Below, one piece after another: positions 1-42,189 of a stretch of 42,189 nucleotides of DNA. Location of the stretch: NCBI RefSeq assembly GCF_023518235.1, contig NZ_CP090424.1, positions 1-42,189 on the forward strand, in the 5' to 3' direction. The stretch's first letter is position 1. Every line of letters starts with the position of its first letter. Source of the stretch: Stenotrophomonas maltophilia (GTDB taxonomy: Bacteria; Pseudomonadota; Gammaproteobacteria; Xanthomonadales; Xanthomonadaceae). The position numbers and the translations under genes were made by a program. The notes under the pieces were generated by a model that had not been told where the DNA came from, made no database searches, and saw nothing but the letters and a program-made list of their open reading frames with translations.

Positions 1-458
1 ACTGGCCAGTCCAGGCTGTCTACCGCGCAGTCGGCTACAAGTCCGACCCCATCGACGGCGTCCCATTCGATGAGAACAAGCACGTCATCCCTAATGACGG
101 CGGACATGTCCTCACCGCTCCAGGCGCAGAACCAGTACCAGGCCTCTATGCAACCGGCTGGATCAAGCGTGGACCAATCGGTCTAATCGGCAACACCAAG
201 TCCGACGCCAAGGAAACCACCGACATCCTCATCAAGGATGCCGTCGCCAGGTGTACTTGAAGCTCCAAAGCACCAGGGCGAAGAAGCCATCATCGAGCTT
301 CTCGATTCCCGCAACATCCCATTCACCACCTGGGAAGGCTGGTACAAACTCGACGCAGCAGAGCGCGCACTCGGTGAAGCCGAAGGCGCGAGCGCAAGAA
401 GATTGTTGATTGGGAAGAAATGGTCCGCCAGGCCCGCGAAGCTCCAGCAATTGTCTAA
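1..458 (+). CDS. fpr2: Ferredoxin/flavodoxin-NADP+ reductase, C-terminal part
   Basis: This is the C-terminal third of a flavoprotein of the FprA/adrenodoxin-reductase family, which moves electrons between NADPH and ferredoxin and probably feeds the sulfite reductase CysI. The frame enters at base 3 (WPVQAVYRAVGYKS) and contains the family's GLYATGWIKRGPIG segment at about 145-190. The protein resumes after an apparent frame break near 248-256, breaks again near 385 at a probable GGCCGCGAG written as GGCGCGAG, and ends in APAIV at TAA 456-458. The N-terminal two thirds lie at 41278-42189 at the other end of the window, and the two pieces join in frame with no base missing or repeated. Together they give about 457 codons, the usual family length. 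Function rests on family recognition; the electron partner is inferred from the neighbouring cys operon. Confidence 0.9.
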
Positions 459-478
459 ATTGTTTTAACGCGTGAAGC

Positions 479-520
479 AGTCCCCGCCCGATTTATTCGA
501 GGCGGGGACTTTCGCTTTCC
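479..520 (+). terminator. Terminator of fpr2 (copy 1 of a repeated terminator)
   Basis: A 9-bp stem GTCCCCGCC/GGCGGGGAC surrounds a short loop and is followed by TTTCGCTTT, 20 bases after the fpr2 stop. A 42-bp copy with only two mismatches lies at 1977-2018, after the next gene. Confidence 0.85.
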
Positions 521-554
521 GGGATAAAAATTGCAACGCACTACACTGAGCAGT

Positions 555-1920
555 ATGAATGATGAGAATATTCAAAGCTCCAACTATCAGCCATTCCCGA
601 GTTTTGACGATTGGAAACAGATCGAGGTGTCGCTCTTAGATGTCATCGAATCCTCACGCCATTTTTCTGATTTGAAAGATAGCACTGATCGTTCTGCGTT
701 AGATGCTGCGCTAGAGAGAGCAAAAAGAGCTCGCCAGAGTTGATACCAATGCCATAGAAGGAATCTTCCAAACTGATCGCGGTTTTACCCATACAGTTGC
801 AACGCAGGTAGGGGCTTGGGAGCAACAAATGGCGATGAAAGGCAAACATGTTAAGCCTGCGTTTGACGATACTCTAGAAGGCTTTGAGTATGTTCTCGAT
901 GCAGTAACTGGTAGAACTCCAATCTCTCAGCAATGGATTAGAAATTTGCACGCCGTCATTCTGCGGAGCCAAGAAAGCCACGAGGTTTTTACAGCCGTTG
1001 GAGTCCAAAATCAGGCGCTTCAGAAAGGCGAGTATAAAACTCAGCCAAATAGTCCACAGCGCTCAGATGGATCTGTACATGCATACGCCCCAGTTGAAGA
1101 TACTCCTGCTGAAATGGCTAGATTTATTTCAGAACTTGAATCTAAGGAATTCTTAGCAGCCGAGAAGGTTATTCAAGCTGCCTATGCCCACTATGCTTTC
1201 GTATGTATTCATCCTTTTGCAGATGGGAATGGACGAGTTGCACGAGCCTTGGCTAGTGTTTTTCTATACAAAGATCCTGGTGTCCCTCTCGTAATCTACC
1301 AAGATCAACGCAGAGATTACATCCATGCTCTAGAAGCAGCGGACAAGAATAACCCGCTCCTGCTGATTAGATTCTTTGCTGAACGAGTGACCGATACTAT
1401 TAACTCTATTATCGTTGATCTCACTACCCCGATCGCGGGTAAATCTGGTTCGGCTAAGCTTTCGGATGCGCTACGCCCCACTCGCGTATTACCAGAATTA
1501 CATGATGCTGCACATAGGCTCCAAGAAAGTTTATTTACAGAAATCCGATCTCGATTGGATGAAGAAGGAAAAAGGAATGGGTTGGAGTTTCTACTTCAAC
1601 GGATTTTTATCGGTTCCCCATTCAATCTGCCAGAGGGCTATAACGCTTTCCCTGATAGCTATTGTCTGACCTTAGCTTTCAATAGCAACTCTCCAAAACA
1701 AATCTTCCACCCGCTATCCATAGTAATAGCAGCTCGAGATGGGAAAAGAGCGAGCAGCGACCTCGTGGCAGCTACTTCTATTGGATACAACTTTCACGCT
1801 TACGGACGTGAAGTCGAGCCTGTTGTTACTGAAAGCTTTCGAGAACGTGTGAAAATTTACGCCGACGGGATTGTAGATCACTTCTTAACCGAACTGGCTA
1901 AAAAGTTTCAACAGAATTAA
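555..1920 (+). CDS. Fic-domain protein (probable AMP transferase), apparent frameshift
   Basis: Fic proteins transfer AMP or a related group from a nucleotide to a hydroxyl side chain of a target protein. The catalytic loop HPFADGNGRVAR (about 1211-1246) matches the HxFx(D/E)GNGR motif. The N-terminal segment from ATG 555 is open until a five-A run near 722-726. Removing one A there joins it to a frame containing DTNAIEGIF near 740-765, which fits the inhibitory-helix motif (S/T)xxxE(G/N) of class II Fic proteins. The remainder is a C-terminal domain of about 200 residues, rich in helix, that I do not recognise; it may bind the target. The product would be about 454 residues. It stands alone between two copies of one terminator. 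No antitoxin gene is visible, which agrees with an in-built inhibitory helix. Start 555 has a weak ribosome site, so the start is uncertain. Confidence 0.8.
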
Positions 1921-1976
1921 TTAGCCTATCTCGGCTTTCGCCTTCCGATCCTCAGTCTAGGTTTAGCGACTTTTAA

Positions 1977-2018
1977 AGTCCCCGCTCGTTTTATTCGAGG
2001 CGGGGACTTTCGCTTTCC
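1977..2018 (+). terminator. Terminator after the Fic gene (copy 2)
   Basis: The stem GTCCCCGC/GCGGGGAC is followed by TTTCGCTTT. It is 40 of 42 bases identical to the terminator at 479-520. It may also serve the small minus-strand gene that ends at 2027 in the reverse direction. Confidence 0.8.
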
Positions 2019-2026
2019 ACCTTGCG

Positions 2027-2197
2027 CTACCGATTCACCATATAAACCAGCACTGCCACTACCAATCCGGCGATCATAAAACCAAGCGCAACCAGCGCAT
2101 TGGCATACATGATGCTGATGTACATTCCGGTGAGAACTCCAAGCAAGAAGATAATGAACGCCTTAACAACGGCCCTTCGTTGAAGATCTTCTTTCAT
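2027..2197 (-). CDS. Small two-helix membrane protein, function unknown
   Basis: The product has 56 residues. A short charged N-terminus (MKEDLQRR) is followed by two hydrophobic stretches, about residues 12-32 and 35-54, ending in MVNR. I chose the ATG at 2197 because an AAGGTGG ribosome site stands five bases before it; a longer reading from 2230 lacks such a site. I recognise no family. It is flanked by the Fic terminator and a VOC-type gene on the same strand, and the gap of about 90 bases to that gene makes an operon uncertain. Confidence 0.6.
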   Translation of the reverse strand: MKEDLQRRAVVKAFIIFLLGVLTGMYISIMYANALVALGFMIAGLVVAVLVYMVNR

Positions 2198-2287
2198 GGC
2201 AACCACCTTTTCCTCAATGCTCAAAATCAAGCTTTAAGTCCAGAGTTGCAGTTGCCTCACCCGAATTCAATAAGTTTCCAAAAGTTT

Positions 2288-2701
2288 TAGCCACCGATGT
2301 TGAACATCCAGTGAGTTCCAAAGCGATCCTCCAGCGCACCATAAACCGCACCCCAAGGAACAGCTTCCAAAGGCATGGTCACGGTCGCGCCTCAGACAAC
2401 TTCTCCCAGTAGCCACGAATTTCCTCTTCCAGCTCAGCGCCACCAGTCAGCGACAACGAGTGTCCTCGCCCTTCATTCGTTGCATCACGCGCGGAATATC
2501 ACTGGCAAAAAGCAACTTCTGACCATCAACGACCAGCTCAGCGTGCATGATTTTCTCGCCGTCACCACCAACTTCCTCCTCAGAATGCATGGCGGAAAAC
2601 GGCATCATCTGAAGCTCGCCACCAAAAACTGTTTGGTAGAACTCCATTGCTTCTTTGGCATTTCCATTGAACTGACGGTACGGGGTGAGATCGGCTTTCA
2701 T
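2288..2701 (-). CDS. VOC/PhnB-like protein (glyoxalase superfamily), apparent frameshifts
   Basis: The N-terminus carries the PhnB-type pattern: [21 protein letters not shown], with the middle strand [21 protein letters not shown]. The frame breaks near 2455, where reading one base over continues [20 protein letters not shown], and again near 2390. It then closes with [22 protein letters not shown] and TAA at 2288-2290, the typical C-terminus of this family. The total is about 138 residues, the usual size. Members are small metal-site dimers; many have no known substrate, so I give no reaction. Start 2701 has AGGAA shortly upstream. Confidence 0.75.
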
Positions 2702-2780
2702 CGGATTCCTGCCTTCCAAGCGAGAGCATTTTCTGTGACCCACATTACGCTAGAAAGCATGCGTCAATCTGCTTCCAGAC

Positions 2781-3147
2781 ATGTCACCCTCCTCAGCACC
2801 GCCACCCGACCAAAAAATTTACGAGATAGCGCGCGATCTTCCTAGGCTGCCCGCTTGGGCTTCAGGTTTAGCAAGCGGGACGCTTTCGCTTATCGACGCC
2901 AACTCCTCCATTTGGAATCCCCCATGGGCCTAGTTCACACCGAATTCACCCCAATAAACACCTACGGAATCCTCGACCACGTAGTCACCCTCCCCGACGG
3001 AACTAAAGTGCTCAACCCTTTCCGAGTCATCCCCACGACACCGGCTCCGAACTCATTTTCACCGTCCGCCCCAACGAAAACTTCGAAGAAGATTGCCAAG
3101 CAGTCGCAGCAGACCTCGAAAGGCTGGTCGCACTGGCCGAAAAATGA
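2781..3147 (+). CDS. SRPBCC-like small protein, apparent frameshifts
   Basis: Two single-C losses in C runs (near 2925 and 3033) split this gene. With them restored it reads about 122 residues from ATG 2781: MSPSSAPPPDQKIYEIARD, then GILDHVVTLPDGTKVLNPFRV, then GSELIFTVRPNENFEEDCQAV, ending LVALAEK. The order of a substrate-cavity strand (DHVVTLPDG), a strand-rich middle and a C-terminal helix resembles polyketide-cyclase/SRPBCC proteins, some of which bind hydrophobic ligands. The match is by pattern only and no ligand can be named. An in-frame upstream start is possible. It converges on tctA across the terminator at 3191-3230. Confidence 0.6.
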
Positions 3148-3190
3148 CCCCACAGAATGGTCTCTAAGCGACTTCGAGGCCTTAAACAAC

Positions 3191-3230
3191 AAACAGGCAA
3201 ACCGTAGCCACAGCTACGGTTTGCCTGTTT
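3191..3230. terminator. Bidirectional terminator between SRPBCC gene and tctA
   Basis: A near-perfect 18-bp hairpin (AAACAGGCAAACCGTAGC paired with its complement across CAC) is bordered by A and T runs, so it can work in both directions between convergent genes. Confidence 0.85.
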
Positions 3231-3243
3231 CTATACGGGGACT

Positions 3244-4776
3244 TTAAGCGTCGATGGTTTCGAGCTGAGAAGTCAGGTGCTTGCGACGACCGCGGATTGC
3301 AGTGATGACACTGACCGCGATGAAGATGGCGAGCACTGCGTAGAGGGACCAGGTGATGGGGCTGGAGACGAGGATGGAGAAATCGCCAACCGAGGACAGT
3401 AGTGCGTCGCGGAGGGAGGTTTCAGCCAAAGGTCCAAGAACCATACCGATCATCAGCGGTGCCAGCGGGTAACCGTAGCGACGCATGATCAAAGCCACGA
3501 CACCGATGCCGAGCAGCATGAGCAGGTCGAACACTGCGCCGGAGGTGGCGTAAATGCCCAGGCCACAGAACAATGCGATGCCGGAGTAGAGGTAGTGGTT
3601 TGGAATGAGCAGGAGCTTTGCCCACAGCTGTGCGAACGGCAGGTTGATGAACAGCAGGACGATCATCGCGATGAAGAAGCTGGCAAGAAGTGCCCAGACA
3701 AGTTCAGGGTTGCGATCGAAGAGTAGTGGTCCGGGCTGGATTCCGTACTGGCGGAACGCTGCCAACATGATGGCCGCAGTTGCAGAGACTGGGAGACCCA
3801 GGGCAAGAAGAGCGCCCATCGCCATGCCTGTGGTGGCGTTACCTGCAGCTTCAGGAGCAGCGAGTCCTCGGATTGCACCTTTATCGCCGAACTGCGGATC
3901 TTTGCGTCGTTTATCCAATGCGCGCTCGGTGGAGTAAGCCAAGAAGGTTGGAACTTCAGATCCACCAACAGGGATCACACCGAAAGGCAGACCAATGATG
4001 GTTCCGCGTGCCCAGGCTGGAGCGGCTTCTTTGAATTCCGTTCCGGTAAGCCACGGACGGCCTGCAGAGCGCGTCTCCAGATTTGCTTTGTCACGGCGTG
4101 CGCGGGCTGCAATGTAAAACACTTCTCCCAGTGCCAAAATCGCGACGGTAACAGTAACGAGGGAAATTCCGTCGAAAAGCTGCGGTGCCCCGAGCGTGAA
4201 GCGCTCGATGCCGGTGACCGAATCGATGCCGATGGTCGCAATGCCGAGGCCGAAAATGAGGGACGCAAGTCCCTTAAACACGGAGTCGGACACCACGGAG
4301 GAGGTGGCGACGAACGCGAAGAGTGCCAGTGCGAAGTACTCGGCGGGGCCGAATGCGGTGGACAGTTCCGCCAGGGTTGGTGCGAGGAAGACCACGATGA
4401 AGGAGGAGACGATACCGCCGATGAAGGCACCGATCGCTGCGGTAGCCAGAGCCTGTGGCGCACGGCCGTTAAGAGCCATGCGGTGGCCCTCGAATGTTGA
4501 GGCGATTGCCGATGCCTGACCTGGGGTGTTCATCAAAATTGCCATCGTGGAGTCACCGAAGAGACCACCGAAATATACGCCAGAGAACATAATGAACGCG
4601 GCAGTTGGATCAAGCGCGAAGGTCATTGGCAGCAGCAGCGCCACAGCCATGGAGGATCCAAGACCAGGCATGACGCCAACCGCGGTGCCGAGCAAACAGC
4701 CGACAATCACCCAGAGGAGGTTCATCGGCGTTAGCGCGCCGGCGAAACCTTCCATCAAGAGGGACAAAATATCCAT
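3244..4776 (-). CDS. tctA: Tripartite tricarboxylate transporter, large membrane subunit TctA
   Basis: The product has 510 residues and about twelve hydrophobic segments. It opens with the family's GMPGLGSSMAVALLLPMTFALDP region and carries the glycine-rich GLPFGVIPVGGSEVPTFLAY and AAGNATTGMAMGALLALGLP loops typical of TctA. It forms the main channel of a secondary transporter that takes up citrate or other tricarboxylates with a cation, together with TctB and the periplasmic-type binding protein TctC. The ATG overlaps the tctB stop by one base (TAATG), a sign of translational coupling. It is one of the few long genes here with no frame break. It is last in the operon and ends just before the shared terminator at 3191-3230. 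In C. glutamicum this operon is known for citrate uptake; the substrate here is taken from that knowledge. Confidence 0.92.
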   Translation of the reverse strand: MDILSLLMEGFAGALTPMNLLWVIVGCLLGTAVGVMPGLGSSMAVALLLPMTFALDPTAAFIMFSGVYFGGLFGDSTMAILMNTPGQASAIASTFEGHRMALNGRAPQALATAAIGAFIGGIVSSFIVVFLAPTLAELSTAFGPAEYFALALFAFVATSSVVSDSVFKGLASLIFGLGIATIGIDSVTGIERFTLGAPQLFDGISLVTVTVAILALGEVFYIAARARRDKANLETRSAGRPWLTGTEFKEAAPAWARGTIIGLPFGVIPVGGSEVPTFLAYSTERALDKRRKDPQFGDKGAIRGLAAPEAAGNATTGMAMGALLALGLPVSATAAIMLAAFRQYGIQPGPLLFDRNPELVWALLASFFIAMIVLLFINLPFAQLWAKLLLIPNHYLYSGIALFCGLGIYATSGAVFDLLMLLGIGVVALIMRRYGYPLAPLMIGMVLGPLAETSLRDALLSSVGDFSILVSSPITWSLYAVLAIFIAVSVITAIRGRRKHLTSQLETIDA

Positions 4777-5343
4777 TAAAAGCCACCACCCAAAAGTCCG
4801 GAAGGAAGATTAAGTCCCAAGCCCACATCGAATGCGAGGTAGACCACGGAGCTCATCATGAGGGAAACAAGAACATCGAAACCTGGGCGTTTGGAACCGA
4901 AAGCCCTGGTCATTGTCCAGAACAACAAGGAGCCAGCAAGGACCCAGCCAAGATATGGAAGCAAGACTGCAAAGGCGAAGAAGCCACCGATCGCCCACGC
5001 GAGTGAGACGTAATCAGAGTGGAATTTCCAGCTTCGGCCAGATTCATTTTCTGGATGCATGGGGTACTTGATGGTTTGAATGGTCAATGCCACTGCCACC
5101 AACAAACCCGCGATGCCGAGGATTGTTGGGAAGAATCGAGGTCCTGGGAATGCTGCATTGCCCACATCCATGTTTAAAACACCGATGAGCAAATACAAAC
5201 TAAATGCCGTAAGAATTGCGGGCATGATGAGCCCGGAGGCGGCCTTCCCAGAAAGTGCCCTCGCCAACTGGACGAGGTCCGGGCAGCTGGTGTGATTCCG
5301 GGATGTCGATATGGGACTCGCCGGATTGTTCAGTGACGTTCAC
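4776..5343 (-). CDS. tctB: Tripartite tricarboxylate transporter, small membrane subunit TctB
   Basis: TctB is the small membrane subunit that works with TctA. Four hydrophobic helices are visible (around LTAFSLYLLIGVLNM, ILGIAGLLVAVALTI, WAIGGFFAFAVLLPYLGWV and SLMMSSVVYLAFDVGL), as the family expects. I place the start at GTG 5343, which overlaps the tctC stop (TAGTG). This gives an N-terminal tail NVTEQSGESHIDIPESHQLP that joins the membrane part only if one extra base near 5283 is removed. The alternative is a TTG start at 5267. The stop overlaps the tctA start by one base. Confidence 0.85.
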
Positions 5344-6347
5344 TAGCCCATCTCCTTGAATAGCTGATCAATTCGGTCAATTTCATCTTCAACAAACTGG
5401 TCGAGTTCTTCGCCTTCAAGTGAGGCGTTCATCCAGTAGTTTCGTTCCACCGCGGACTGCCATTCAGCAGTCTCCACAGACTCCGCAACGATTGCTCGAA
5501 GTTCCGCAATTTGATCATCGCTCAAACCAGGAGGAGCGAACATGGCACGCCAGTTGGTCAAGGTCACGTCATAGCCTTGTTCCACTAGCGTTGGAATGTC
5601 AGAACCTGGAAGGCGTTCTTCTGCAGCAATTCCCAAAACCTTCAATCGACCGGCTTCTACCTGCGGATACATATCAGCAAAACCACCAGTTGATGCCTTT
5701 GCGGTTCCGTTCAGTAGCGCCTGAATCGCTTCGCCACCACCATCAGAAGGAATAAAGGTGGTTTGCTTAGGATCTATACCTGCAGACAGTGCAATTTCTG
5801 TCATAACAAGCTGGTCAAAGGAACCACCACCGGTCCAGGACACTCCTGCTGGATCTGCCTTCCAACCTTCAATGAGCTCTTCAAGGGTGTTGTATGGAGA
5901 ATCCGCTGGCACGGTGATGATGTCGAACTCTTCCACCACACGAGCAATTGGGGTGACATCCTGGATTTTCGCAGGGGTATCGAATTGAATTTGTGCTGCG
6001 ATATGCCCCGTTCCACCCACCATCAAGGTGTTCGGTGCAGTCATGGTAGACAGTTTGCCAAGTGCAATGGTTCCACCAGCTCCAGGGATGTTGACCACCT
6101 GAATATTGTTCACGATCTTATTCACGCGCATAGACTGCTGCTGCTCACGTTGGAAAGTATCCCAACCTCCACCTGCAGCTGCAGGAGCAATCAGCGTCAT
6201 GTTGGAACGAATATCCTCGCCACCGGATGCAGACTGGATGGAGAAAAACGCAGCGATTGCAGTGATGACCACCGCTGCGGTACCTACAACAAATTGTTTA
6301 GTTTTGGATTGTGCAGACCCTGCGGGTTCTGCTCCTACTTCGGCCAT
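5343..6347 (-). CDS. tctC: Tricarboxylate-binding protein TctC (extracytoplasmic receptor)
   Basis: This is the extracellular solute receptor of the TctCBA transporter, of the Bug/TctC family. A basic and then hydrophobic N-terminus (residues about 16-37, QFVVGTAAVVITAIAAFFS) acts as a Sec signal or anchor. The mature part has the family marks PAAAGGGWDTFQR, the NIPGAGGTIALGKL loop that binds carboxylate, and SDGGGEAIQALLNG. The length is about 334 residues. Start ATG 6347 (MAEVGAEP) is chosen over a TTG at 6386 because GAGAGGG lies about 11 bases upstream. It is the first gene of the operon, and the 290-base upstream region should hold the promoter. Confidence 0.9.
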   Translation of the reverse strand: MAEVGAEPAGSAQSKTKQFVVGTAAVVITAIAAFFSIQSASGGEDIRSNMTLIAPAAAGGGWDTFQREQQQSMRVNKIVNNIQVVNIPGAGGTIALGKLSTMTAPNTLMVGGTGHIAAQIQFDTPAKIQDVTPIARVVEEFDIITVPADSPYNTLEELIEGWKADPAGVSWTGGGSFDQLVMTEIALSAGIDPKQTTFIPSDGGGEAIQALLNGTAKASTGGFADMYPQVEAGRLKVLGIAAEERLPGSDIPTLVEQGYDVTLTNWRAMFAPPGLSDDQIAELRAIVAESVETAEWQSAVERNYWMNASLEGEELDQFVEDEIDRIDQLFKEMG

Positions 6348-6640
6348 TTTGGGGGAATCCCTCTCGGTCGGACTTTTGGACAACAAGCTCTTGAATGTTT
6401 GATGCCTAAGTGCTTGGGTGATTCACGTCACCGCTTCACTGTGGTGTGGACTACATTAAATGGCTTGCCGTGATCCCTAAAAGTCCTTGATGGAATTCTT
6501 TGAGATTCACCCCCAATCAGAGTGTTAAAACTCATTGACCTCGATATATGCTTATTTGGATCATTTTAAATCATTTAGCGCACAGTGATTTGTAGATCAT
6601 TCTTCAAGGTTTTGTGATCCATTCGAGAACTACTTGTGAG
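6348..6640. promoter_or_regulatory. tctCBA promoter region with repeated GATCATT words
   Basis: This AT-rich spacer carries GATCATTTTAAATCATT at about 6559-6575, AGATCATT at 6594-6601 and TGATCCATT near 6614. The spacing suggests a regulator site. In C. glutamicum the CitAB two-component system activates this operon, so a CitB site is plausible. I cannot name the -10 element with confidence. Confidence 0.4.
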
Positions 6641-7373
6641 CTAGGACTCCCCCTTGTTGTCCATCATGACGTCCATCATGTACTCAGCAATTTCTTCCGG
6701 ATCCTCAAAGAAGTCACGTAGCGCTCGAAACGCCGTTGTCACCTCAAAATCAAACCCTCGATGCAGTTCCCCCGATGCACTAAACTCCCAAATTTCTGCA
6801 CCCGGAATAGCCATCAACACCGGCGAATGCGTCACGATGATAATTTGCGCACCACTTTCCGCCAGAAAATTAAGCTCCGCCAGAATCGCCATCTGTCGAA
6901 TGAACGATAGCCCCGCTTCAGGCTCATCCATCAGATACAGCCCCTTGCCCACAAAAGCATTCTGCACAATATGCATCACCGACTCCCCGTGCGACATGTG
7001 ATGAAGGTTCACCCAGCCGGGAGCCTCATCGCGATATCCAGACGCGACGTTGAAATGAGTTTCCGCCCGCAGGAAATACCCCCGCATCGGCTCTTTTCCC
7101 TTGTGTGCTTTTGCCACAGTTTGCAAAGGGTTGTCGGAAGGTTTGAACTTTCCGGTGTGTTCACCACCTGCTGTGTCGAAGCCCGCATTGATCGCGATAG
7201 CCTCCAGCAATGTCGACTTACCCACACCGTTTTCCCCGGTTATGACGGTGATCGGCACGAAAGTCCAGCATGCGCTTTTCTCTCAACACCCGAAAAGCAG
7301 GAACCTTCTCTGTCCAAGCAGCAGCCACACCCACATGTTCAAGCGCTGCAATATCGGTGATATACGGCATCAT
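6641..7373 (-). CDS. ABC-type ATPase domain protein, apparent frameshift
   Basis: A stand-alone ATP-binding protein of about 244 residues. It has a Walker A motif GENGVGKST (near residue 55), a signature-like HHMSHGESV, a Walker B LYLMDEPEAGLS and a switch histidine in IIIVTHSPVL. No membrane segment is present. It resembles the small AAA-type ABC ATPases often annotated as transport proteins. The N-terminal part MMPYITDIAALEHVGVAAAW joins the Walker A part only after one base is restored near 7258. ATG 7373 has a strong GGAGGATCACC ribosome site and overlaps the stop of the paralogue upstream (ATGA). The partner or substrate is unknown. Confidence 0.75.
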
Positions 7374-8090
7374 TGGTGATCCTCCTCCGCAGTCAGAAAC
7401 GCCGCCGTACCTCGCGGATCTGCCACAAATTCCCGAGCCGCACGAACAGCCTCCGCATCCTCAAAATTCACCTTTGCAACACCCGAAGATGTAATTTCAA
7501 GGATCTCTGCCCCCGGAATAGCCAACAATATTGGAGAGTGCGTAGCCATGATGATCTGCGCACCACCTCGAGCAAGGTTGCCCAACTTTCCCAACAACTC
7601 CAACTGCCTCAGCATGGAAAGGCCTGCCTCAGGCTCGTCCAAAACAAAAATCCTTGATTGTTAAAACGCCGATCAATCACCGCAAATACCGATTCGCCAT
7701 GGCTCATCTTGTGAAGATCATGCATGTTCTTTTCCCCCATTAACTCCTCATAATAGGAAGCCACGTTATACATCGTCTCACCCCGAAAAAGAACGCATCC
7801 CGAGGGTTTTCTCTCCGCACCAACTTCAACGACTGATGAAGCGACGACACAATATCGCCTTCCCTGCCAAAGTTTGCATGCCTAGAGCCACCAGACGGAT
7901 TAAGGCGCATCCCCACCGCCAAAGCCTCAACCAACGTGGATTTACCCACCCCATTTTCACCAGTAATCACAGTAATCGGTGCACGAAACTCCAACGGCTG
8001 TTCATGCAGATATTCCACGATCGCCAGGCTCGATAAATACCCCGGCAATGACTCCGGATGATCAAGCAGCGAAACCTTTGTCAAGAACAT
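7370..8090 (-). CDS. Paralogous ABC-type ATPase domain protein, apparent frameshifts
   Basis: A second copy of the same ATPase type, about 240 residues. It has Walker A GENGVGKSTLVEA, Walker B FVLDEPEAGLS and IIMATHSPILLAIPG, and is clearly related to the gene downstream. Frame breaks near 7785 and 7655 separate the N-terminal, central and C-terminal parts, and the signature KMSHGES is in the middle piece. ATG 8090 follows GGGGAGCT. The stop overlaps the start of the downstream paralogue by four bases, so the pair is one transcript and the products may act as a heterodimer. It is divergent from the MFS gene at 8150. The function is not known. Confidence 0.75.
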
Positions 8091-8149
8091 AGCTCCCCAC
8101 CCTAGACAAAAGCCCAAATAAATCTGCTCAATAACCTAACCTAAAGTCC

Positions 8150-9356
8150 ATGCACGCCTCGTCGCCCCAACCTCACCCTCAGCGCACCCGTGTTCTCAGC
8201 GGACTGATTTTCGCCCAAATCATGGTTGGTGCATCCAATGGCGTGACGCTATCGATGGGAAGTTTGCTGGCAGCACACTTGGCGGGAGCTTCGTGGGGAG
8301 GATCAGCCACATTGACCACGATCGGCGCAGCTATCTTTTCGATTCCCCTTGCCCGCATGGTCTCCACATACGATCGCCGAACTTCACTCAGCACGGGCAT
8401 GTTGCTTGGTTGCGTGGGCGCACTACTGGCGATCCTCGGCACACAATTCGGCTTGTTTCCAGTAGTACTTTTGGCATTTTTGTTCCTCGGATCCATGTCG
8501 GCGGTTAACCTCCAAGCACGTTTCATGCGCAACCGACGTGGCCAGTGAAGAAACCCACCGCGACCTCTCGATCGTTGTGTGGTCCACCACCATCGGCGCA
8601 ATCGCCGGACCAAATTTATTTGAACCAAGCGCCCGATTCAGCGAAACCCTGGGCCTCGAACAACATGCCGGCGCATACCTGCTGTGTTTATTTGGCCAGC
8701 TCATCGCCATCGCAGTCTGGCGATTCACCCTCCCCAAAGGCCTCAAACCCGAAGCCACCCCAAATGCACCAACAGAAAAGAAGCGCCTCACCCCGAAAGC
8801 CCTCCAAGCCATCACATCGGTTGCAACCGCACACTTCTCCATGGTCGGTCTCATGTCCATGGCCGCCATCCACATGCAAGGCCACGGCGCCAGCCTCACC
8901 ATCATCGGCTTCACCATCAGTTTGCACGTCGCCGGAATGTACGCACTCTCACCAGTGTTCGGCCTGCTCACAGACAAACTCGGCCGCAATGTCACCATCT
9001 ATTCCGGCTTCGCCATGCTCGCCACATCCGCAGCATTTCTTATCATTTGGCCCGAACCACAGTGGGCCATGATCACATCCATGATCCTGCTTGGGCTCGG
9101 CTGGAACTCTGCCCTCGTCGGTTCTTCAACATTGCTTGTCGACGCCACCCCCATCCACCACCGCACCTACGCCCAGGGGCGCAGCGACCTAACGATGAAT
9201 CTTGCGGGAGCTTCAGGCGGGTTGATCGCCGGACCGTTAATTGCCATGGGCGGAATGCCCTTGTTGGCAGGCGTCGTTCTTGCAGTTGTGGCGCTTCAAA
9301 CGGTGCTTAGTTTCAGAACCCGTTCAATTGAAAAGACTCCTGCTTCATGTTTTTAG
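8150..9356 (+). CDS. Major facilitator superfamily transporter, apparent frameshift
   Basis: A polytopic membrane protein of about 402 residues with twelve likely helices. It has the loop-2/3 motif remnant ARMVSTYDRRTSL and, in the second half, the repeat GLLTDKLGRNVTIYSG that marks MFS carriers. The frame breaks at 8524-8530, where CATGCGC stands in place of a probable CGCCGC; the corrected join reads QARFAATDVASEETHRDLS. This is the same substitution seen in the vector origin at 15043. MFS members move small molecules using ion gradients; substrate and direction cannot be told. The TAG stop overlaps the stop of the convergent M20 gene. Confidence 0.8.
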
Positions 9357-10802: not shown

Positions 10803-10842
10803 GTAATGTTTCTTCGAACACGCTAACCATGCACCAGCCCAC

Positions 10843-12749: not shown

Positions 12750-12763
12750 GCGAGATCCCTTAT

Positions 12764-33990: not shown

Positions 33991-34243
33991 AAACTAAAAC
34001 CCGCCCCGCTTGCGAAGCACTTCGATAGGTTTATGATTGTTTGAATGAGAGGTTTCTGAGTTTCAGCAAGGCTTTCGCAGACTATTCCAAGGAATTACCA
34101 TTCAGGAAATTCTGCTCACTCTCAGCGAGTGTGAAAAAGCCACATCCGCTTTCCTTCTGAATGAAACAATAGAGTGACCTTAATATCTTTCTCGAATAGA
34201 ATATTTGTTCTATAATTAGGTTTCACCTACCTGAAGCGGAAAA
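33991..34243. other. AT-rich spacer
   Basis: About 250 bases lie between the IS remnant and the cysZ terminator. I see no gene, only low-GC sequence with a possible promoter-like TATAAT at 34211-34216. Confidence 0.4.
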
Positions 34244-34271
34244 CGCCCACCCGCGGTGGTGCGGGTGGGCG
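34244..34271 (-). terminator. Terminator of the cys operon
   Basis: An eleven-base stem CGCCCACCCGC/GCGGGTGGGCG with a six-base loop lies just past the cysZ stop. The minus strand continues TTTTCCGC. Confidence 0.9.
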
Positions 34272-34285
34272 TCGAAAAGCGTGTT

Positions 34286-35212
34286 TTAAGTGCTTTTAAT
34301 CTTTTGGCCCTTTGGTTCGGAGACAACTTCGCTGGAGATGGTCTCGTTGAGGAGATTTTTGCGGTAGCGGCGGAAGCCGAGGTACGTCAGCGGCAGGCCG
34401 ATGAGGAGGACGGTGACCTGGATGAGGCCGGTGGGGATGAAATCAAGGCCAACCACGTTGAGCACCTTTGGCAGGTTCAGTGTGACAATCAGGGTGCCCA
34501 CGAAGCCACCGAGGACGGTTGCATTAACGCGAGAGATCATCCAGGCGCCGATTGGTGCTGCGATTGCGCCGATGAGCAACGCGAGAACTGCAGAGAGGTT
34601 AGCTACTAGGTCATCCCACAGTCCCACGACGAAGCCCAATGTTGCGGCTAGGGAGACTAAGAATTCTGCGGTGTTGACGGTGCCGACTACTTTGCGGGGT
34701 TCGGTGCGTCCCAAAGACAGCAGCGTAGAGGTGGTCACTGGACCCCATCCGCCGCCACCGGATGCGTCAACGAAACCACCGACAATACCGAGTCCGCCGA
34801 GGAATCCCCTGCTGTGCGGGCGATCGGAATAGTCGCGGCGGATGCGTCCCTTGCTGAATCGCCAGACTAGGTTCATGCCGATCAGGGCAAGAATCAGGGA
34901 GGTGATCGGTGCTGCTGCTTCGGTGGAAATATTGGACAAGAAGGTAGCGCCAGCAAATGCGCCGATAGCGCCGGGGATACCGAGCCGGACAACTACTTTC
35001 CAATCCACGTTGCCAAATTTCCAGTGGCTTAAACCAGAAACTAAGGTGGTTCCAACCTCTGCGGTGTGCACGACGGCGGATGCCTGCGCAGGGCCTAAAC
35101 CTGCGAGCATGATGAGGATGGTGGTTGAGGTGACGCCGAACCCCATGCCGAGGCCGCCATCAACAAGCTGTGCTGCGACGCCTGCAATGGCGATAAAGAT
35201 TAATGTCTGCAT
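34286..35212 (-). CDS. cysZ: Sulfate permease CysZ (TauE/SafE family)
   Basis: Membrane protein of 308 residues with about eight helices that imports sulfate or a related sulfur anion. It shows the two TauE/SafE repeats: AAQLVDGGLGMGFGVTSTTILIM with ASAVVHTAEVGTTLVSGLSHW in the first half, and GFVDASGGGGWGPVTTSTLL with GTVNTAEFLVSLAATLGF in the second. The frame is intact although several GCCGC/GCGGC sites occur in it. ATG 35212 follows AAGGAAATCAGCT. It is the last gene of cysIXHDNYZ. The assignment to sulfate rests on operon context. Confidence 0.9.
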   Translation of the reverse strand: MQTLIFIAIAGVAAQLVDGGLGMGFGVTSTTILIMLAGLGPAQASAVVHTAEVGTTLVSGLSHWKFGNVDWKVVVRLGIPGAIGAFAGATFLSNISTEAAAPITSLILALIGMNLVWRFSKGRIRRDYSDRPHSRGFLGGLGIVGGFVDASGGGGWGPVTTSTLLSLGRTEPRKVVGTVNTAEFLVSLAATLGFVVGLWDDLVANLSAVLALLIGAIAAPIGAWMISRVNATVLGGFVGTLIVTLNLPKVLNVVGLDFIPTGLIQVTVLLIGLPLTYLGFRRYRKNLLNETISSEVVSEPKGQKIKST

Positions 35213-35232
35213 AGCTGATTTCCTTAGCGGTC

Positions 35233-35954
35233 TTAGATATGTGCCAGCAGTGCGCTCAATGCAGCGTGGTAACGGGCTGCAACAAGTGGTGCGAGGTCAG
35301 TAGTTAGGGGTTCGGAATAGGTGAAGTTTGTGCCGGTGGCAGCTGCGATGTTGGCGGATTGATCAATAGCCCGATCCAGCAGCAAACCTTCCGTAACAAA
35401 CAGCAGGATGTGGACGGCCTTGTGTTTCGAGGCCACCTCTATTACTCCGGCGCGCTGGCACCTGGCCCACCGGTAGCGGGCACCACCTCAACCGAAAAGC
35501 CAGTGAGGAGAGCAATGGTGTGGGCAAGATCGATGACTGATTCATTGGCGGACACGTGTGAGCTGCCAACGGAATACAAAATCACATGGGCATCTGTGGG
35601 GGCGTCCGCACTCAACCGCTGCGCAAGCACGCTGGCTACATCGGAGCCAGTGCCCAAATGCGGACCCACGAGAAGTTCCACACCATACTTTTCTGAAGCA
35701 TCTTTTACTGCCTCAGGAACGTCAATCTTTGCGTGATACGCATTGCTAAACAGCAAAGGAACCAACGCTGCCCTGGTTACACCTTCCGCACTGAGCGTTG
35801 CCACAACCTGATCAAGGGAAGGTTCAGCAAGCTCTAAATGCGCTTCCACGGCTGGTGTTTCCAGCATTCGTCCGGCCTCATGAGTCAGCGCAGTAATGCC
35901 TGCAGCTGCGGACTTTTTGCGGGAACCGTGGGAAAGCGTAATCAGGGGAATCAT
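35233..35954 (-). CDS. cysY: CysY, CbiX-like sirohydrochlorin ferrochelatase, apparent frameshift
   Basis: Probably inserts iron into sirohydrochlorin to make the siroheme that CysI needs. It begins MIPLITLSHGSRKKSAAAGI, with the chelatase His in LSHGS. A second conserved segment AALVPLLFSNAYHAKIDVPE follows, and a second half-domain with VHILLFVTEGLLLDRAID. The frame breaks near 35455, between GASAPE and VIEVASKHKA. The corrected length is about 240 residues. ATG 35954 lies 37 bases after cysN ends. The chelatase role is inferred from family and operon. Confidence 0.88.
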
Positions 35955-35991
35955 GAGGTGTCCTAAATGGGGTCTTGCCTAAGACACTGGT

Positions 35992-37280
35992 CTAGATCGA
36001 CCAGTTATTGCGTAGGCGGTGGCCAACCAAGCCAGCTGCGAGGGTATCGCCGGAGGATTGGTCGATGAGGAGGAAGGATCCGATGGCGCGGGCAGCGTAA
36101 TCTTCAACTTCGAGTTCGCCTGCAACGTCGATGCGCACGTGTGCGATGTCGTTGAGGCCGTAGGTTTCTGGTGCTTCGTTGTCGTTGACGCCGTCGATGT
36201 CGAGGACTCGTTCGATGGCTGCGACGCGTCCGCGGACCAGCTCGGTGCCGTAGCGAACCTTGACTGCTGCACCTGGTTTGATGGTGCGATCGGCCAAGCC
36301 AACAACAGTGGCGTTGAAGGAGCGAACGGATTCTGGGCGGTCTTCGCCAGCGATGAGTTCGCCGGATGAGGTCGATTTCCTGGGCTAGGCGCAGGACAAC
36401 GGCTTCTCCAACTGATGCGGTCTGGAGGGATCCGTCAGCGGAATCGATGTGGGTGACCTGGGTGGTGCTTCAGGTAGGTACACGGTATCGCCCACGGAGA
36501 CGGAACCAGCGTTGATGGTGCCGGCGTAGCCACGGTAGTCGGTGGCGTGCTCGCGGATGACGTACTGGATTGGGAAGCGGAAGCCCAGGTCGTGTGCACG
36601 GCCGTGGGAAACTTCTACGTTTTCCAGGATTTCCAGCACGGTTGGTCCGGTGTACCAATCCATGTGGGTGGAAGGTTCTGCAACGTTGTCGCCCTTGAGC
36701 GCAGAGATTGGAACAACGTGGGTGTCTGTGACATCAAGTGCAGATGCCAGGCCAACGAATTCCTTTTCAATGTTGCGGAAGACTTCTTCGCTGTAATCAA
36801 CAAGGTCAATTTTGTTGACTGCGAGGATCACCGTGCGTACGCCCAGCAGAGCCGATACGGACAGGTGGCGGGGTCTGCTCGACGACGCCGTGGCGGGCGT
36901 CGACAAGCAAAACTACAACCTGGGAGGTGGAGACGCCGGTGACGGTGTTGCGGGTGTACTGCACGTGACCTGGGGTATCAGCCAGGATGAAGGTGCGCTT
37001 GTCGGTGGCGAAGTAGCGGTAGGCAACGTCGATGGTGATGCCCTGCTCACGCTCGGCGCGCAGGCCGTCGACGAGGAGTGACAGGTCGAGGCCTTCGAAG
37101 CCACGGTCGGCGGAGGTGCGCTCTACGGAAGCCAGCTGATCAGCAAGAACAGACTTGGTGTCGTGCAGGAGGCCCGACGAAGGTGGACTTGCCATCATCT
37201 ACGGAACCTGCGGTGCACAGACGAAGGGTCTCGCGTGATGCAATCTTTTCGGATGCTTTATTCAAGGTTGGAGCAGTCAT
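35992..37280 (-). CDS. cysN: Sulfate adenylyltransferase large subunit CysN, apparent frameshifts
   Basis: A GTPase that drives sulfate activation to adenosine 5'-phosphosulfate with CysD. The G motifs are [12 protein letters not shown] (P loop), [15 protein letters not shown] and NKIDLVDY, followed by the EF-Tu-like domain 2 and the C-terminal [27 protein letters not shown]. Length is about 433 residues. At least four breaks all fall at GCGGC or GCCGC: near 37169 (GGAGGCGGCCGAC read GGAGGCCCGAC), 36877 (GTGGCGGCGGGTC read GTGGCGGGGTC), 36470 (GTGCGGCCTTC read GTGCTTC) and 36373 (TTCGCCGCGGAT read TTCGCCGGAT). ATG 37280 overlaps the cysD TGA by one base. Confidence 0.94.
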
Positions 37281-38191
37281 CAGAAGTAGCCTTCCTTCTT
37301 GCGGTCTTCCATTGCGGATTCGCTGAGGCGGTCATCGGCGCGGGTTGCGCCACGTTCGGTAAGGGTGGAGGTGGCGATCTCTTCGATCACATCGTCAATG
37401 GTGCGGGCTTCGGAGAGCACAGCACCGGTGCAGGACATATCGCCGACGGTGCGGTAGCGGACAGTCTTGGTGACGATCTCCTCGCCCTTCTTTGGTCCAC
37501 CCCACTCGCCTGCGGTCAGCCACATGCCGTCGCGCTCGAAAACTTCGCGGTCGTGGGAGAAGTAGATCGGTGGAAGTTCGATGCCACGGGCGCCGATGTA
37601 CTCCCAAATGTCAGCTTCAGTCCAGTTGGAGATTGGGAAAACACGGATGTTTTCGCCTGGCAGGTGGCCACCGTTGTAGAGGGTCCACAGCTCTGGCGCT
37701 GACGGCGTGGATCCCAACCACCGAAGGAGTCACGCACAGAGAACACACGCTCCTTGGCGCGGGCACGCTCCTCATCGCGGCGAGCGCCACCAAGCACTGC
37801 GTCGTAGCCCTGCTCAGCGATGGTCTCCACCAAAGGGACAGTCTGCAGTGGGTTGCGGGTGCCGTCTGGGCGTTCCTGCAGGTCACCGCGATCGATCCAG
37901 TCCTGGACTTTAGCTACGCGCAGGCGGGCGCCGGTGCGCTCCACCAGGTTGTCGCGGAATTCCAAAACCTCTGGGAAGTTGTGGCCGGTGTCCACGTGCA
38001 GCAATTCAAAAGGCACGTTAGCTGGAGCGAAAGCACAGCGCAAGCTCGTACACCACGACGGAATCCTTACCGCCGGAAAACAGCAGGCCGACCTTATCAA
38101 ACTGGCCAGCTACCTCGCGGAGGATGTGGATGGATTCATTTTCAAGATCTTTAAGGTGTGGGGATAGTACTGATGCAACGGTTGTGGTCAT
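37280..38191 (-). CDS. cysD: Sulfate adenylyltransferase small subunit CysD, apparent frameshifts
   Basis: The ATP-pyrophosphatase subunit that forms adenosine 5'-phosphosulfate with CysN. It has the PP-loop [16 protein letters not shown] (near residue 36), [16 protein letters not shown], the [18 protein letters not shown] segment and [17 protein letters not shown], ending DRKKEGYF. The corrected length is about 304 residues. Breaks occur near 38038 (after YELA) and 37700 (CAGCGCCCAGAG read CAGCGCCAGAG, one C lost). ATG 38191 (MTTTVASVL) overlaps the cysH stop by four bases. Confidence 0.94.
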
Positions 38192-38970
38192 GAGTGAAGT
38201 CCGCATTCTGTCTTGGCGTTTCCAGCCCAACGGCCGGCCCTAGGGTCTTGTCCTTCAGCAACAGGAAGGGTGCAGGTTTCGCATCCAATTGATGGATAAC
38301 CCTGATGGGTAAGTGGGTGATCGATGAGGTTGTTGTCCGCAATGAACTCGTTGGTTTCCTCCAATGACCAGGTGATAATTGGAGAAATCTTGAGCCTGCC
38401 GGTGGCATCCAAGCTCAGCGCAGGGGCTTGAGCACGGGTTGGGCCATCAGCGCGGCGCAGGCCGGTGATCCAGCCAGCGTATGGGCTTAACGACGCCGCC
38501 AGCGGTTCAACTTTGCGCATTCGGCAGCACGCCGCTGGGTTGCTGCGGTACAGGTTGAGACCATAAATGGAATCCTGCTCCGTGCGCTTGAGGATCGGCA
38601 GCGCGGTGACAAGCTTCTGGGAATAGCGCTCATCTACCTGACGGCAACTTCAAGGGTCTCCTTGAAGTGGTAACCGGTGTCCAAAAAGAGGAAATCAGCT
38701 TCCGGCAGGTGCCGCAGCCAGCTCCGCCAGCACGGTGTTTTCCATGCTCAAGGTCACTGCAATAGCGCCCGGCGCGTGCTCGGCTGTCCATTCCAGGATC
38801 TCTTGCGCGCTGGCGTCATACAACGCAGCAGCATGCTTTTCGACGAGTTCCTCGTTATGTTTTGCTACCTCTGGTGACAACGGTGTGGTCGTGCGAGGTC
38901 CTTCGGGTGAGATCTCGGGATCTTTTACCGAACCAGTATTTTTCAGGGCGTTAACTAGTTGAAAGCTCAT
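38188..38970 (-). CDS. cysH: Adenylylsulfate reductase CysH ([4Fe-4S] type), apparent frameshifts
   Basis: Thioredoxin-dependent reductase that turns adenosine 5'-phosphosulfate into sulfite. The iron-sulfur ligands CC in [14 protein letters not shown] and CETC in [15 protein letters not shown] show the APS-reductase type as opposed to the cluster-free PAPS type. The catalytic tail is KTECGLHS. The frame breaks near 38703, 38635 and 38522, joining [15 protein letters not shown] with [14 protein letters not shown] and [14 protein letters not shown]. Length is about 261 residues. ATG 38970 overlaps the cysX stop (ATGA). Confidence 0.93.
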
Positions 38971-39215
38971 TGTTGCGACTCACCTCTTTTGTGTCTTTCG
39001 AGAGATTCTTTTAATGCTTGCGATGTGGACTTTGCTGGTGCTGGCCTGTGCACTGGATCGTCCTGGCCGTGATATTTCACTTCAAAAACTCTGGTGCAAT
39101 CCGCACACAACCACGCGAATTCTGTTTGCTCATCGGGGAAAAGAACTTCTCCCGCGCAGTATGGGCAGTACAGAGGGTGGTTGCGGTTGGGATTGGGTTT
39201 CCTCCGAAGACTCAC
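38967..39215 (-). CDS. cysX: CysX, small cysteine-pair protein
   Basis: An 82-residue protein with CPYCAGEV and CADCTRVF, two CxxC pairs 20 residues apart that could bind zinc or an iron-sulfur cluster. The C-terminus is basic and helical. The start GTG 39215 overlaps the corrected cysI stop (GTGA). A ferredoxin-like role for sulfite reduction has been proposed for CysX, but the sequence alone shows only the metal-site pattern. Confidence 0.87.
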   Translation of the reverse strand: MSLRRKPNPNRNHPLYCPYCAGEVLFPDEQTEFAWLCADCTRVFEVKYHGQDDPVHRPAPAKSTSQALKESLERHKRGESQQ

Positions 39216-40895
39216 ACCAAATCTTCCTCAGCGCCCGCTGGACCCAATCGCGGAAGTGCTCGTCCTCGTGGCGCTGTTCCTTGAAGTGGGTAACAACGCG
39301 AGTGACGTACTCTCCCACTTCATCGGCAATAACCTTGTGGCCCTTGAGCTTGCGTCCGAAGTTTGGATCCAAGTTCATGGAACCGCCCAGGTGAACCTGG
39401 AAACCTTCAACGCGGTTGCCGTCAGCATCAGTGACGGTCTGTCCCTTGAATCCGATGTCGGAAACCTGGGTGCGTGCACAAGAGTTAGGGCAACCGTTCA
39501 GTGCAATCTTGATGGGAACATCCAAATCGCCGAGGCGCTCTTCCAGTTCGTCGACAAGCTCAATTGCTCGTGACTTGGTGGTTGCGTGCGCAAGCTTGCA
39601 GAACTCCAAGCCGGTGCAGGAAATGATGCCGCACGGAACTCGGAAGGTGAAGAGTACAGTCCGATTTCATCCAGGTCGCGTGCAACGGTAGTAAGGTTCT
39701 TTCTCTCAATATCGAGGAAGAGCAGTTCCTTTTCCGCCGTGGTACGAATCCTGGTGATGCCGTGCTTTTCTGCAACATCAGCAATGGCAATGAGCTGCTC
39801 ACCGGTGGTGTGTCCAACGGTTGGCTTCACACCGAGGTAGAACTTGCCGTCCTTTTGTGGGTGAATGCCAATGTGGTCACGGTAGCCAGGGTTGGTGGTA
39901 ACAACTGGGCCATCGATCAGCTTGCGCTCGAGGTATTCGGTCTCAAGAACTTCACGGAACTTCTCAATACCCCACTGTGCCACCAAGAACTTGAGGCGAG
40001 CACGGTTACGCAGGCGTCGGAAGCCGTAGTCGCGGAAAATTCCGGCGACGCCAGCCCACACTTCTGGAACCTCATCAAGTGGAATCCAAGAACCAAGTGG
40101 CTGAGCAAGCATTGGGTTGGTGGACAGGCCACCGCCCACAAAGCACTCAAATCCTGGGCCGAATTCTGGGTGAATCGAAGGAACGAAGGAAACGTCCTGG
40201 ATTTCGTGGGTAACATCCTGGCGCTGGTTGCCAGTGATAGCAGTCTTAAACTTACGAGGAAGGTTGTGGAACTCTTCCTTGTCTAGGTAGCGCTCACGAA
40301 TCGCATCGATAGCCGGGGTGGCATCGATCAGCTCTTCAGCAGCTACGCCAGAAACTGGGGAGCCCAAGATAACACGTGGAACGTCACCGCAACCAAGCAT
40401 GGTGGACAGTCCGACGGTTTCTAGCTTCTCCCAGATCGCAGGCACATCTTCAATACGAATCCAGTGCAGCTGAATGTTCTGGCGGTCGGTGAAGTCCGCG
40501 GTGGAACGAGCATAATCCCTAGAAATTTCACCCACGGCACGCAGGCGCTCAGGGGAAGCCAGTCCGCCATCAAAACGCACACGCATCATGAAGTACTCAT
40601 CCTGCAGCTCATCATCAGGAAGCTGACCGGTCAGTTCACCGCCCAGATCCTGCTTACGCTGGGTGTAAATGCCCAACCACTTAAAGCGTGGGGCAATGTC
40701 ATCCGGTGCAATGGAAGAAAAACCCTGCTTGGAGTAAATATCAATGACCCGCTGCTTGACAGCAAAAGCGGGTTCTTCTTGCTTAATTTCCTCGGCATGG
40801 TTAAGCGGCTCGGTGCCGTCGATTTTCCATTGGCCTTCGGGCTTAGGCTTCCTGGCGGCACGTGCTGGCCGGGCACTTCCGGTGGTTGTTGTCAT
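39212..40895 (-). CDS. cysI: Sulfite reductase (ferredoxin-type) CysI, apparent frameshifts
   Basis: Reduces sulfite to sulfide with six electrons at a siroheme coupled to a [4Fe-4S] cluster. It has the siroheme-binding parts DFTDRQNIQLHWIRIEDVP and GLSTMLGCGDVPRVILGSP and the cluster ligands in CTGLEFCKLA and NGCPNSCARTQ. Total is about 561 residues. The frame breaks near 39622, where one G is lost after GCCGC. The printed end runs into cysX because GGGCGGCTGAGG reads GGGCGCTGAGG near 39240; the corrected tail is RAAEEDLV with TGA at 39212-39214. ATG 40895 (MTTTTGSARPARAARK) is the start. It is the first gene of the operon, divergent from fpr2, its likely electron supplier. Confidence 0.95.
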
Positions 40896-41277
40896 GGGGA
40901 GTTAATCCTTAAAGAGCTAGTGAAGTACATGTCACTCGGTTTGATCTATCCGCAAACTTAGACGTACCGCTCTGTCTAGACCAACCATTAGATTCATGAG
41001 ACTGAAAGCAATGGAGTCACCTAATGCCCGTTTAAATGAATTAACCTGGGGATATTAGGTTAGGTTCACCGTGAATATAATAGACCGATCTGTCTAGTTT
41101 TTTCATGGAGTTTGAATTTAATTAAGCAAAAGTCTTCGCATTGTCGCATTTCGCTGCTACGTTTACAGACCAAGCGGTCTAGGAGTGTTAAACAGCCTGG
41201 ACTTGAAACACCTTTAACTACTTGATTTTCACACCCTTGTTTCCATAAAAGGGCTCACGAAAGGCAACTTCAAACAC
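40896..41277. promoter_or_regulatory. Divergent cysI / fpr2 control region with McbR-type sites
   Basis: TAGAC-N6-GTCTA occurs exactly at 41081-41096. A near copy CAGAC-N6-GTCTA is at 41166-41181, close to fpr2. TAGAC-N10-GTCTA lies at 40959-40978, close to cysI. McbR is the known repressor of sulfur genes in this species, and the activator CysR also acts here. No gene is seen. Confidence 0.75.
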
Positions 41278-42189
41278 ATGACAACTCCCCTGCGCGTAGC
41301 CGTCATCGGAGCTGGCCCTGCTGGCATTTACGCATCCGACCTCCTCATCCGCAATGAAGAGCGCGAAGTGTTCGTTGACCTTTTCGAGCAAATGCCTGCA
41401 CCGTTCGGACTCATCCGTTACGGCGTTGCTCCAGACCACCCACGCATCAAGGGCATCGTTAAGTCCCTGCACAACGTGTTGGACAAGCCACGCCTGCGCC
41501 TGCTCGGTAACATTGAAATCGGCAAAGACATCACCGTCGAAGAACTCCGCGACTACTACGATGCAGTCGTGTTCTCCACCGGCGCAGTTGCAGACCGCGA
41601 CCTCAACATCCCCGGAATTGAAGCAGAAGGCTACTTCGGTGCCGGCGAGTTCGTTGGCTTCTACGACGGCAACCCACGCTTCGAGCGCTCCTGGGATCTG
41701 TCTGCACAGTCCGTCGCTGTTATCGGCGTTGGTAACGTCGGCCTCGACGTAGCCCGCATCCTGGCTAAGACAGGCGACGAGCTCAAAGTCACCGAAATTT
41801 CCGACAACGTCTACGACTCCCTCAAAGAAAACAAGGCCACTGAAGTGCACGTTTTCGGACGTCGTGGCCCAGCACAGGTCAAGTTCACCCCACAGGAACT
41901 CAAAGAACTCGACCACTCCCCCACCATCAACGTGGTTGTTGATCCAGAAGACATCGACTACGACGGCGCCTCTGAAGAAGCCCCGCGCATCCAAGTCCCA
42001 GGACCTGGTCTGCCAGATCCTGGAACAGTACGCAATCCGCGAGCCAAAGGACGCTCCGCACACCCTGCAGATCCACCTCTTTGAAAACCCAGTTGAGGTT
42101 CTTCAAAAGGACGGCAAGGTTGTTGGCCTGCGCACCGAACGCACCTCACTTGATGGCAACGGCGGCAAACGGAACCGGCGAATTCAAGG
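41278..42189 (+). CDS. fpr2: Ferredoxin/flavodoxin-NADP+ reductase, N-terminal part
   Basis: The N-terminal two thirds of the FprA-type reductase. ATG 41278 starts TTPLRVAVIGAGPAGIYAS with the FAD-binding GxGPAG. EQMPAPFGLIRYGVAPDHP follows, and the NADP-binding VAVIGVGNVGLDVARIL at about residue 148. The frame breaks near 41980 (GCCCGCCGCGCATCC read GCCCCGCGCATCC) and near 42168, where two bases seem lost after GGCGGC. The last codon is split between base 42189 and bases 1-2, and the protein continues at 1-458. It is divergent from cysI under McbR-type sites. Confidence 0.95.

Follow-up and report, generated by a model that had tools for sequence, protein, structure and literature searches.

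The window analysed here is the whole of contig C2 (42,189 bases) of the four-contig assembly GCF_023518235.1, which totals 4,918,013 bases and was filed under Stenotrophomonas maltophilia (the host). It consists of two stretches of the Corynebacterium glutamicum chromosome and, between chromosome ends 13015 (reference 3019490) and 17211 (reference 2981399), 4,195 bases of laboratory DNA that carry hps and phi; it thus forms a unit foreign to the host genome that closes on itself. The chromosomal part includes a stub of ald, the alcohol dehydrogenase gene adhA, a Wadjet type I operon and both parts of an oxidoreductase gene (Pyr_redox_2 by family match; its name, fpr2, is one that an earlier sequence-only reading of this DNA had presumed), in which the contig is cut. 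The reference used throughout was an independent Corynebacterium (C. glutamicum) chromosome, G068, a single contig of 3,309,401 bp (Table 1).

Table 1 Features of the 42,189-base window, in window order. Reference positions are those of the G068 chromosome.
Feature	Position	Strand	Remarks
fpr2, 3' part	1..458	+	Reference mapping
C. glutamicum chromosome 3006462-3019490	1..13015	+	fpr2 3' part, Fic-domain gene, tctA, tctC, MFS gene, cytochrome b561-like gene
Joint J1, chromosome 3019490 to pBL1 3154	13015..13016	.	Two bases (AC) before the joint common to both
pBL1 fragment	13016..14163	+	pBL1 3154-4313; CDS (coding sequence) 1853-3058 absent
Escherichia coli vector backbone	14164..15095	+	Stretch downstream of Tn5-type neo, and pMB1/pUC origin (names presumed)
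bla 5'-end remnant	15096..15390	-	Fragment only, recognised by eye in translation
rrnB T2/T1 terminators (names presumed) and 5S rRNA remnant	15400..15800	-	
phi (hxlB), 6-phospho-3-hexuloisomerase	15822..16375	-	Frame broken in consensus
hps (hxlA), 3-hexulose-6-phosphate synthase	16381..17016	-	211 aa, Bacillus methanolicus type
Promoter fragment from upstream of PrpD gene	17035..17210	-	Ahead of hps-phi; reference 670929-671105, 99%
Joint J2, prpD2 promoter fragment to ald at reference 2981399	17210..17211	.	No shared base
C. glutamicum chromosome 2981399-3006461	17211..42189	+	ald stub, hspR, dnaJ, grpE, dnaK, jetDCBA, adhA, cysN/cysH/sulfite-reductase-type genes, fpr2 5' part
ald, about the first 100 codons from the probable start	17211..17512	-	Reference copy: acetaldehyde dehydrogenase, ExaC family
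Wadjet type I / MksFEBG operon	24633..31169	-	Families called on reference copies
jetD	24633..25831	-	
jetC	25737..29054	-	
jetB	29051..29688	-	
jetA	29685..31169	-	
adhA, AdhP-type alcohol dehydrogenase	31508..32553	-	Adjoins mks operon
fpr2, 5' part (Pyr_redox_2 oxidoreductase)	41278..42189	+	Family scan, reference mapping
Seam, base 42189 to base 1 inside fpr2	42189	.	Reference 3006461/3006462

The window was doubled and aligned to the reference chromosome, and positions 17205-55204 of the doubled sequence formed one unbroken alignment to reference 2981393-3019490 that runs across the seam (38,104 columns, 99.62% identity). Window base 42189 corresponds to reference base 3006461 and window base 1 to reference base 3006462, which confirms the earlier observation that the two ends join inside fpr2 with no base gained or lost; we estimate the chance of both contig ends landing on adjacent bases of a 3.3-Mb chromosome at about one in three million. 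A reference alignment might have assigned the two fpr2 parts to different genes, and it instead placed both in one intact open reading frame (ORF; reference 3005546-3006919, 457 aa) that covers the seam and also encodes EFKDWPVQAV. The fpr2 frame of the window is broken elsewhere than at the seam, for example at 41982 and 386, breaks that we take for consensus errors, and the seam is just the point at which a closed contig was cut, with no biology there. The alignment stops beyond ald and beyond the cytochrome gene, the two places at which the sequence-only reading had the window leaving the normal chromosome. That reading had proposed a circle or a tandem unit; the closed contig or direct-repeat unit stands, with the tandem unit somewhat favoured here over the circle, and both the foreign origin and the vector bridge had been missed, the stretch that makes the circle being the 4.2 kb of vector at 13016-17210.

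Along the window, reference position 3019490 is followed by the vector and then by 2981399, both on the plus strand, so that two distant chromosomal positions are brought together in direct orientation with a novel joint. In an 18-bp perfect hairpin (−26.8 kcal/mol when folded as DNA, z −9.2), joint J1 comes 1 bp before the 5' arm is complete; the hairpin sits in an intergenic repeat (window 12930-13015, reference 3019404-3019525) with relatives elsewhere on the C. glutamicum chromosome. Searching the chromosome for the hairpin repeat with at most one mismatch gave nine matches, three of them at the J1 site, while the reversed control gave none; the J1 sequence itself had no match in IMG/VR.

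Of pBL1, the vector stretch retains 1.15 kb, in which the region next to CDS 1853-3058 is included and a nick site was not located; it lacks this CDS, which we take to be Rep and to which Pfam assigned no family. Its pBL1 part shows 21 differences from pBL1 in 1,164 columns, and the laboratory plasmid pKD071 is 98.9% identical over window 14253-15057 (9 differences in 809 columns). The names given to the vector parts (Tn5-type neo, pMB1/pUC origin, rrnB terminators) are presumed ones. A repeat within the window was detected at the terminator stretch, where three sites in the host genome, read by us as the host 5S genes, match 15618-15721 at 82%. Hps was assigned to the HUMPS family (PF00215; 5.2e-40) and the readable part of Phi to the SIS domain (PF01380; 8.3e-12). 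The top HxlA match was 100% identical and was taken as being of the B. methanolicus type; an origin of hps-phi in Bacillus subtilis was rejected for this reason and because the readable Phi is clearly unlike B. subtilis YckF (yckF presumably being the phi gene of that species). Neither a heterologous methanol dehydrogenase gene (mdh) nor, in the translation read by eye, a complete resistance gene was seen in the vector part. The promoter fragment, which in the reference originates between a CstA-family and a PrpD-family gene, is the prpD2 promoter, a known propionate-inducible part of C. glutamicum vectors (PMC5693361). In plasmid records, the prpD2 stretch had no match.

The unit differs from the rest of its assembly in composition and in sequence. 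The main contig (C1; 4,791,742 bp) has a GC content of 63-69% in the eight stretches read, compared to 53% for the window and 54% for the Corynebacterium reference. We searched the window over its full extent against its own assembly, in three stretches (1-12000, 12001-29999 and 30000-42189), and found in C1 only matches of 66-90% that extend over no more than 782 bp, and a single 29-bp match at 97%. These fall at dnaK, adhA, 5S and a few other places and look like conserved genes. No match to the other two contigs (C3 and C4) was obtained anywhere in the window, and neither a second copy of the window nor chromosomal flanks were found in the assembly. The four contigs sum exactly to the assembly total, and C2 is the only C. 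glutamicum contig among them. C3 and C4 represent one 42,041-bp circle opened at two different points and are identical (100%) to a C1 prophage at 2872-44960; this prophage has a 48-bp repeat at its ends and is counted three times by the assembly. Because the circle is also present in C1 with the 48-bp end repeat, it appears to be an excisable prophage of the host. Against Stenotrophomonas phages, the prophage gave three records with short matches that cover 1-2% of a 20-kb query, so the host may be related to Stenotrophomonas. The near-equal sizes of the window and this circle (42,189 versus 42,041) were considered as a possible sign of a relationship and rejected as a coincidence, since C3/C4 is a host prophage without similarity to C2.

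Compared with the reference, the window lacks 104 bases, has 6 additional ones and carries 35 substitutions. From the reference stretch, mechanical ORFs of 150 codons or more were taken, and 22 of the 27 are broken in C2, while none is broken in the reference itself. The same ORF test on one of two 12-kb stretches of C1 obtained for it, against three relatives, whose loci extend past the 12 kb compared, gave 1/10, 2/11 and 3/12 broken, 7/10, 5/11 and 5/12 intact, and 2, 4 and 4 partial or absent ORFs. Given the lack of close similarity to C1 and the broken ORFs, C2 is a contaminant that does not belong to the genome with which it was filed, and the contamination was probably shallow, with a low read depth. 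Its source was an engineered and probably methanol-oriented C. glutamicum. The differences from pBL1 and pKD071 indicate that the vector part is not cleaner than the remainder of the window; if these differences are errors, an extra free plasmid seems to have added no depth. That C2 is the sole C. glutamicum contig of the assembly suggests that this unit outnumbered the remainder of its chromosome, provided that no other contigs were taken out ahead of deposition.

The gene content of the unit points to methanol metabolism, as it unites adhA with hps and phi and holds ald only as a stub. AdhA has been termed a native methanol dehydrogenase (Mdh; PMC7205612), and Ald is a formaldehyde-oxidising enzyme (PMC8879981), whose gene is inactivated in synthetic methylotrophic strains (PMC8313271, PMC7279501). 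The unit would thus be a methanol-assimilation module, and an increase in its copies would boost both methanol oxidation and formaldehyde fixation. JetA, JetB, JetC and JetD are encoded together, so that the Wadjet type I gene set is complete (best PADLOC hits on the reference copies: JetD 1.7e-93, JetC 0, JetB 4e-81, JetA 7.7e-179), and the mks operon adjoins adhA in C. glutamicum (PMC10123090). The jetABCD frames are broken in the window consensus, as are 22 of the 27 ORFs of the contig, probably due to sequencing error. Hennig et al. (2020; PMC7279501) found that evolution for methanol use acted through cg3104 to raise the copy number of plasmids; this is the mksB/jetC gene (PMC10123090), which also lies within the unit. 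The Fic-domain gene beside fpr2 (531-1920) was called SoFic-like by PADLOC (1.1e-26; reference copy scanned), and two 42-bp copies (95%), palindromic by eye and present in the reference too, flank it at 479-520 and 1977-2018; they are possibly terminators.

We consider it reasonably probable that an engineered C. glutamicum carried an amplified direct repeat, and that the window is a single unit of it that strayed into an unrelated assembly. A pBL1-based shuttle plasmid carrying PprpD2-hps-phi would have integrated in ald, producing J2, after which illegitimate recombination between the pBL1 part of the plasmid and the hairpin 38 kb away would have produced J1 and a tandem duplication; if J2 predates J1 in this way, a single illegitimate joint suffices. 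Exchange with the hairpin on a sister chromosome would give a tandem repeat, and exchange within one chromosome a circle. Selection for hps-phi, perhaps together with adhA, could then have raised the copy number of the unit. Carry-over of DNA or reads at a low level would have brought C. glutamicum sequence into the assembly, in which only the over-represented unit would have had enough stray reads to assemble, and its head-to-tail order would have led the assembler to close the contig. An array is preferred to a circle because pBL1 CDS 1853-3058 is missing and the unit carries Wadjet, which restricts circles below 50-100 kb (PMC10586767) and, as the Mks system of C. glutamicum, reduces pBHK18 copy number (PMC10123090). 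The presence of Wadjet argues against a free circle, though not strongly.

Several points weigh against an amplified repeat. The copy number of pJC1 is unaffected by the Mks system in C. glutamicum (PMC10123090), and since the assembly holds a true excisable element as the circular contigs C3 and C4, contigs of circular form in it can reflect genuine circles. The argument for over-representation would fail if other C. glutamicum contigs were discarded ahead of deposition, as may have happened. The first quality test, by counts of frame-breaking gaps, did not separate C2 from C1, as gaps per coding kb were 3.0, 4.3 and 6.0 for C1 (relatives at about 90% identity; a fourth relative with only 38 aligned bases was dropped) versus 1.5 for C2. 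The gap counts thus failed to support consensus errors. We think that the higher C1 counts come from paired gaps created by divergence; whole ORFs were compared after this. Because the analysis covered assembled sequence, the read depth and copy number of the unit, its flanks and its array structure are predicted ones, which also counts against this reading. A published strain with such a construct was not found, and the nearest methanol-dependent strain with B. methanolicus hps-phi has them on pEC-XK99E (PMC7205612). Among open-licence papers (titles and the starts of abstracts), tandem amplification of such a unit in engineered C. glutamicum was not found either.

An alternative explanation, possible though rather unlikely in our view, is a free 42-kb episome: the integrated plasmid would have left the chromosome with 38 kb in an F-prime-like manner and would persist on the retained pBL1 origin region, with Rep supplied from elsewhere. 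The exact closure of the contig fits this, as do the 1.15 kb of pBL1 kept beside the replication CDS, the circular prophage contigs in the same assembly and the indifference of pJC1 to Mks; against it, the pMB1 origin is not known to function in corynebacteria, the replication CDS is missing, and no helper plasmid contig is found among the four that could provide it. The translation of the vector part, read by eye, showed no complete resistance gene, and a circle carrying all four Wadjet genes would itself be of a restrictable size. That pBL1 belongs to a rolling-circle family (PMC4379921) is again in favour of the episome. We regard as improbable that the closure is an assembly artefact, in which vector copies at both ald and 3019490 were collapsed by a shallow assembly and the 38 kb between them closed into a false circle. 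The numerous consensus errors and the vector at exactly both flanks would agree with it, whereas 4.2 kb is a length that long reads normally bridge, the vector would have to have integrated twice, at sites 38 kb from each other and in one orientation, and the presence of only this part of C. glutamicum in the assembly would be left unexplained. A real element of the host genome, either a plasmid or horizontally acquired C. glutamicum DNA, is suggested by its being filed there and is very improbable indeed, given that 38 kb match a single Corynebacterium chromosome at 99.62% and are accompanied by pieces of laboratory vector, that frames are broken more often than in the C1 stretch examined, and that C3 and C4 agree with the C1 prophage to the base.

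A bolder extension of the amplified repeat, which we hold to be doubtful, is that an evolving synthetic methylotroph built a self-amplifying 42-kb module by one illegitimate joint, combining adhA, as the native gene for methanol oxidation, with foreign hps-phi, dropping ald and moving its cargo from a Wadjet-exposed plasmid to a Wadjet-escaping chromosomal form, with firing of the integrated rolling-circle origin as a possible driver of its amplification. If real, the amplification shows how engineered C. glutamicum can raise the dosage of native adhA and foreign hps-phi at once, and it provides a means to test whether MksBEFG, by restricting plasmids, promotes the integration of their cargo into the chromosome; the Wadjet operon, if repeated with the unit, might raise plasmid restriction in the source strain. 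As a natural phenomenon the unit is ordinary, as a product of engineering, and perhaps of evolution in the laboratory, it is mildly interesting, and as a database matter it is clear contamination. A species-level genome collection entry holds 42 kb of another organism and laboratory vector, and automatic annotation would assign to the host the hps-phi, Wadjet and cys genes of another bacterium, along with a second dnaK from it.

Tandem duplication and amplification of engineered cassettes under selection is a known phenomenon, and an integrated rolling-circle plasmid has reportedly induced amplification in B. subtilis (Petit et al., 1992). The unit resembles such systems in having a direct repeat unit, an illegitimate joint, a selectable gene inside and a piece of an integrated rolling-circle plasmid at the joint; it differs in that the co-repeated chromosome brings a functionally matched adhA and a whole plasmid-restriction system, and in that its amplification is the probable rather than the observed part. 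Similar to strains MX-10, MX-11 and MX-14 and to MDS2 and MDS2T14 (PMC8313271, PMC7205612, PMC7279501), it derives from C. glutamicum with ald inactivated and ribulose monophosphate (RuMP) pathway genes added, and it shares B. methanolicus hps-phi with the MX strains, while the MDS strains use B. subtilis hxlAB. In the MX and MDS strains these genes are plasmid-borne (pEC-XK99E; pEKEx3 or pVWEx1) and accompanied by mdh, whereas the unit has a truncated pBL1/prpD2 construct joined to ald, with no heterologous mdh seen in its vector part. Its four restriction genes have the order described for C. glutamicum MksBEFG/Wadjet type I and lie beside adhA (PMC10123090, PMC10586767); unlike the genes described in these sources, their frames are broken in the consensus and they sit in a repeated or circular unit that, if free, could itself be a substrate of Wadjet.

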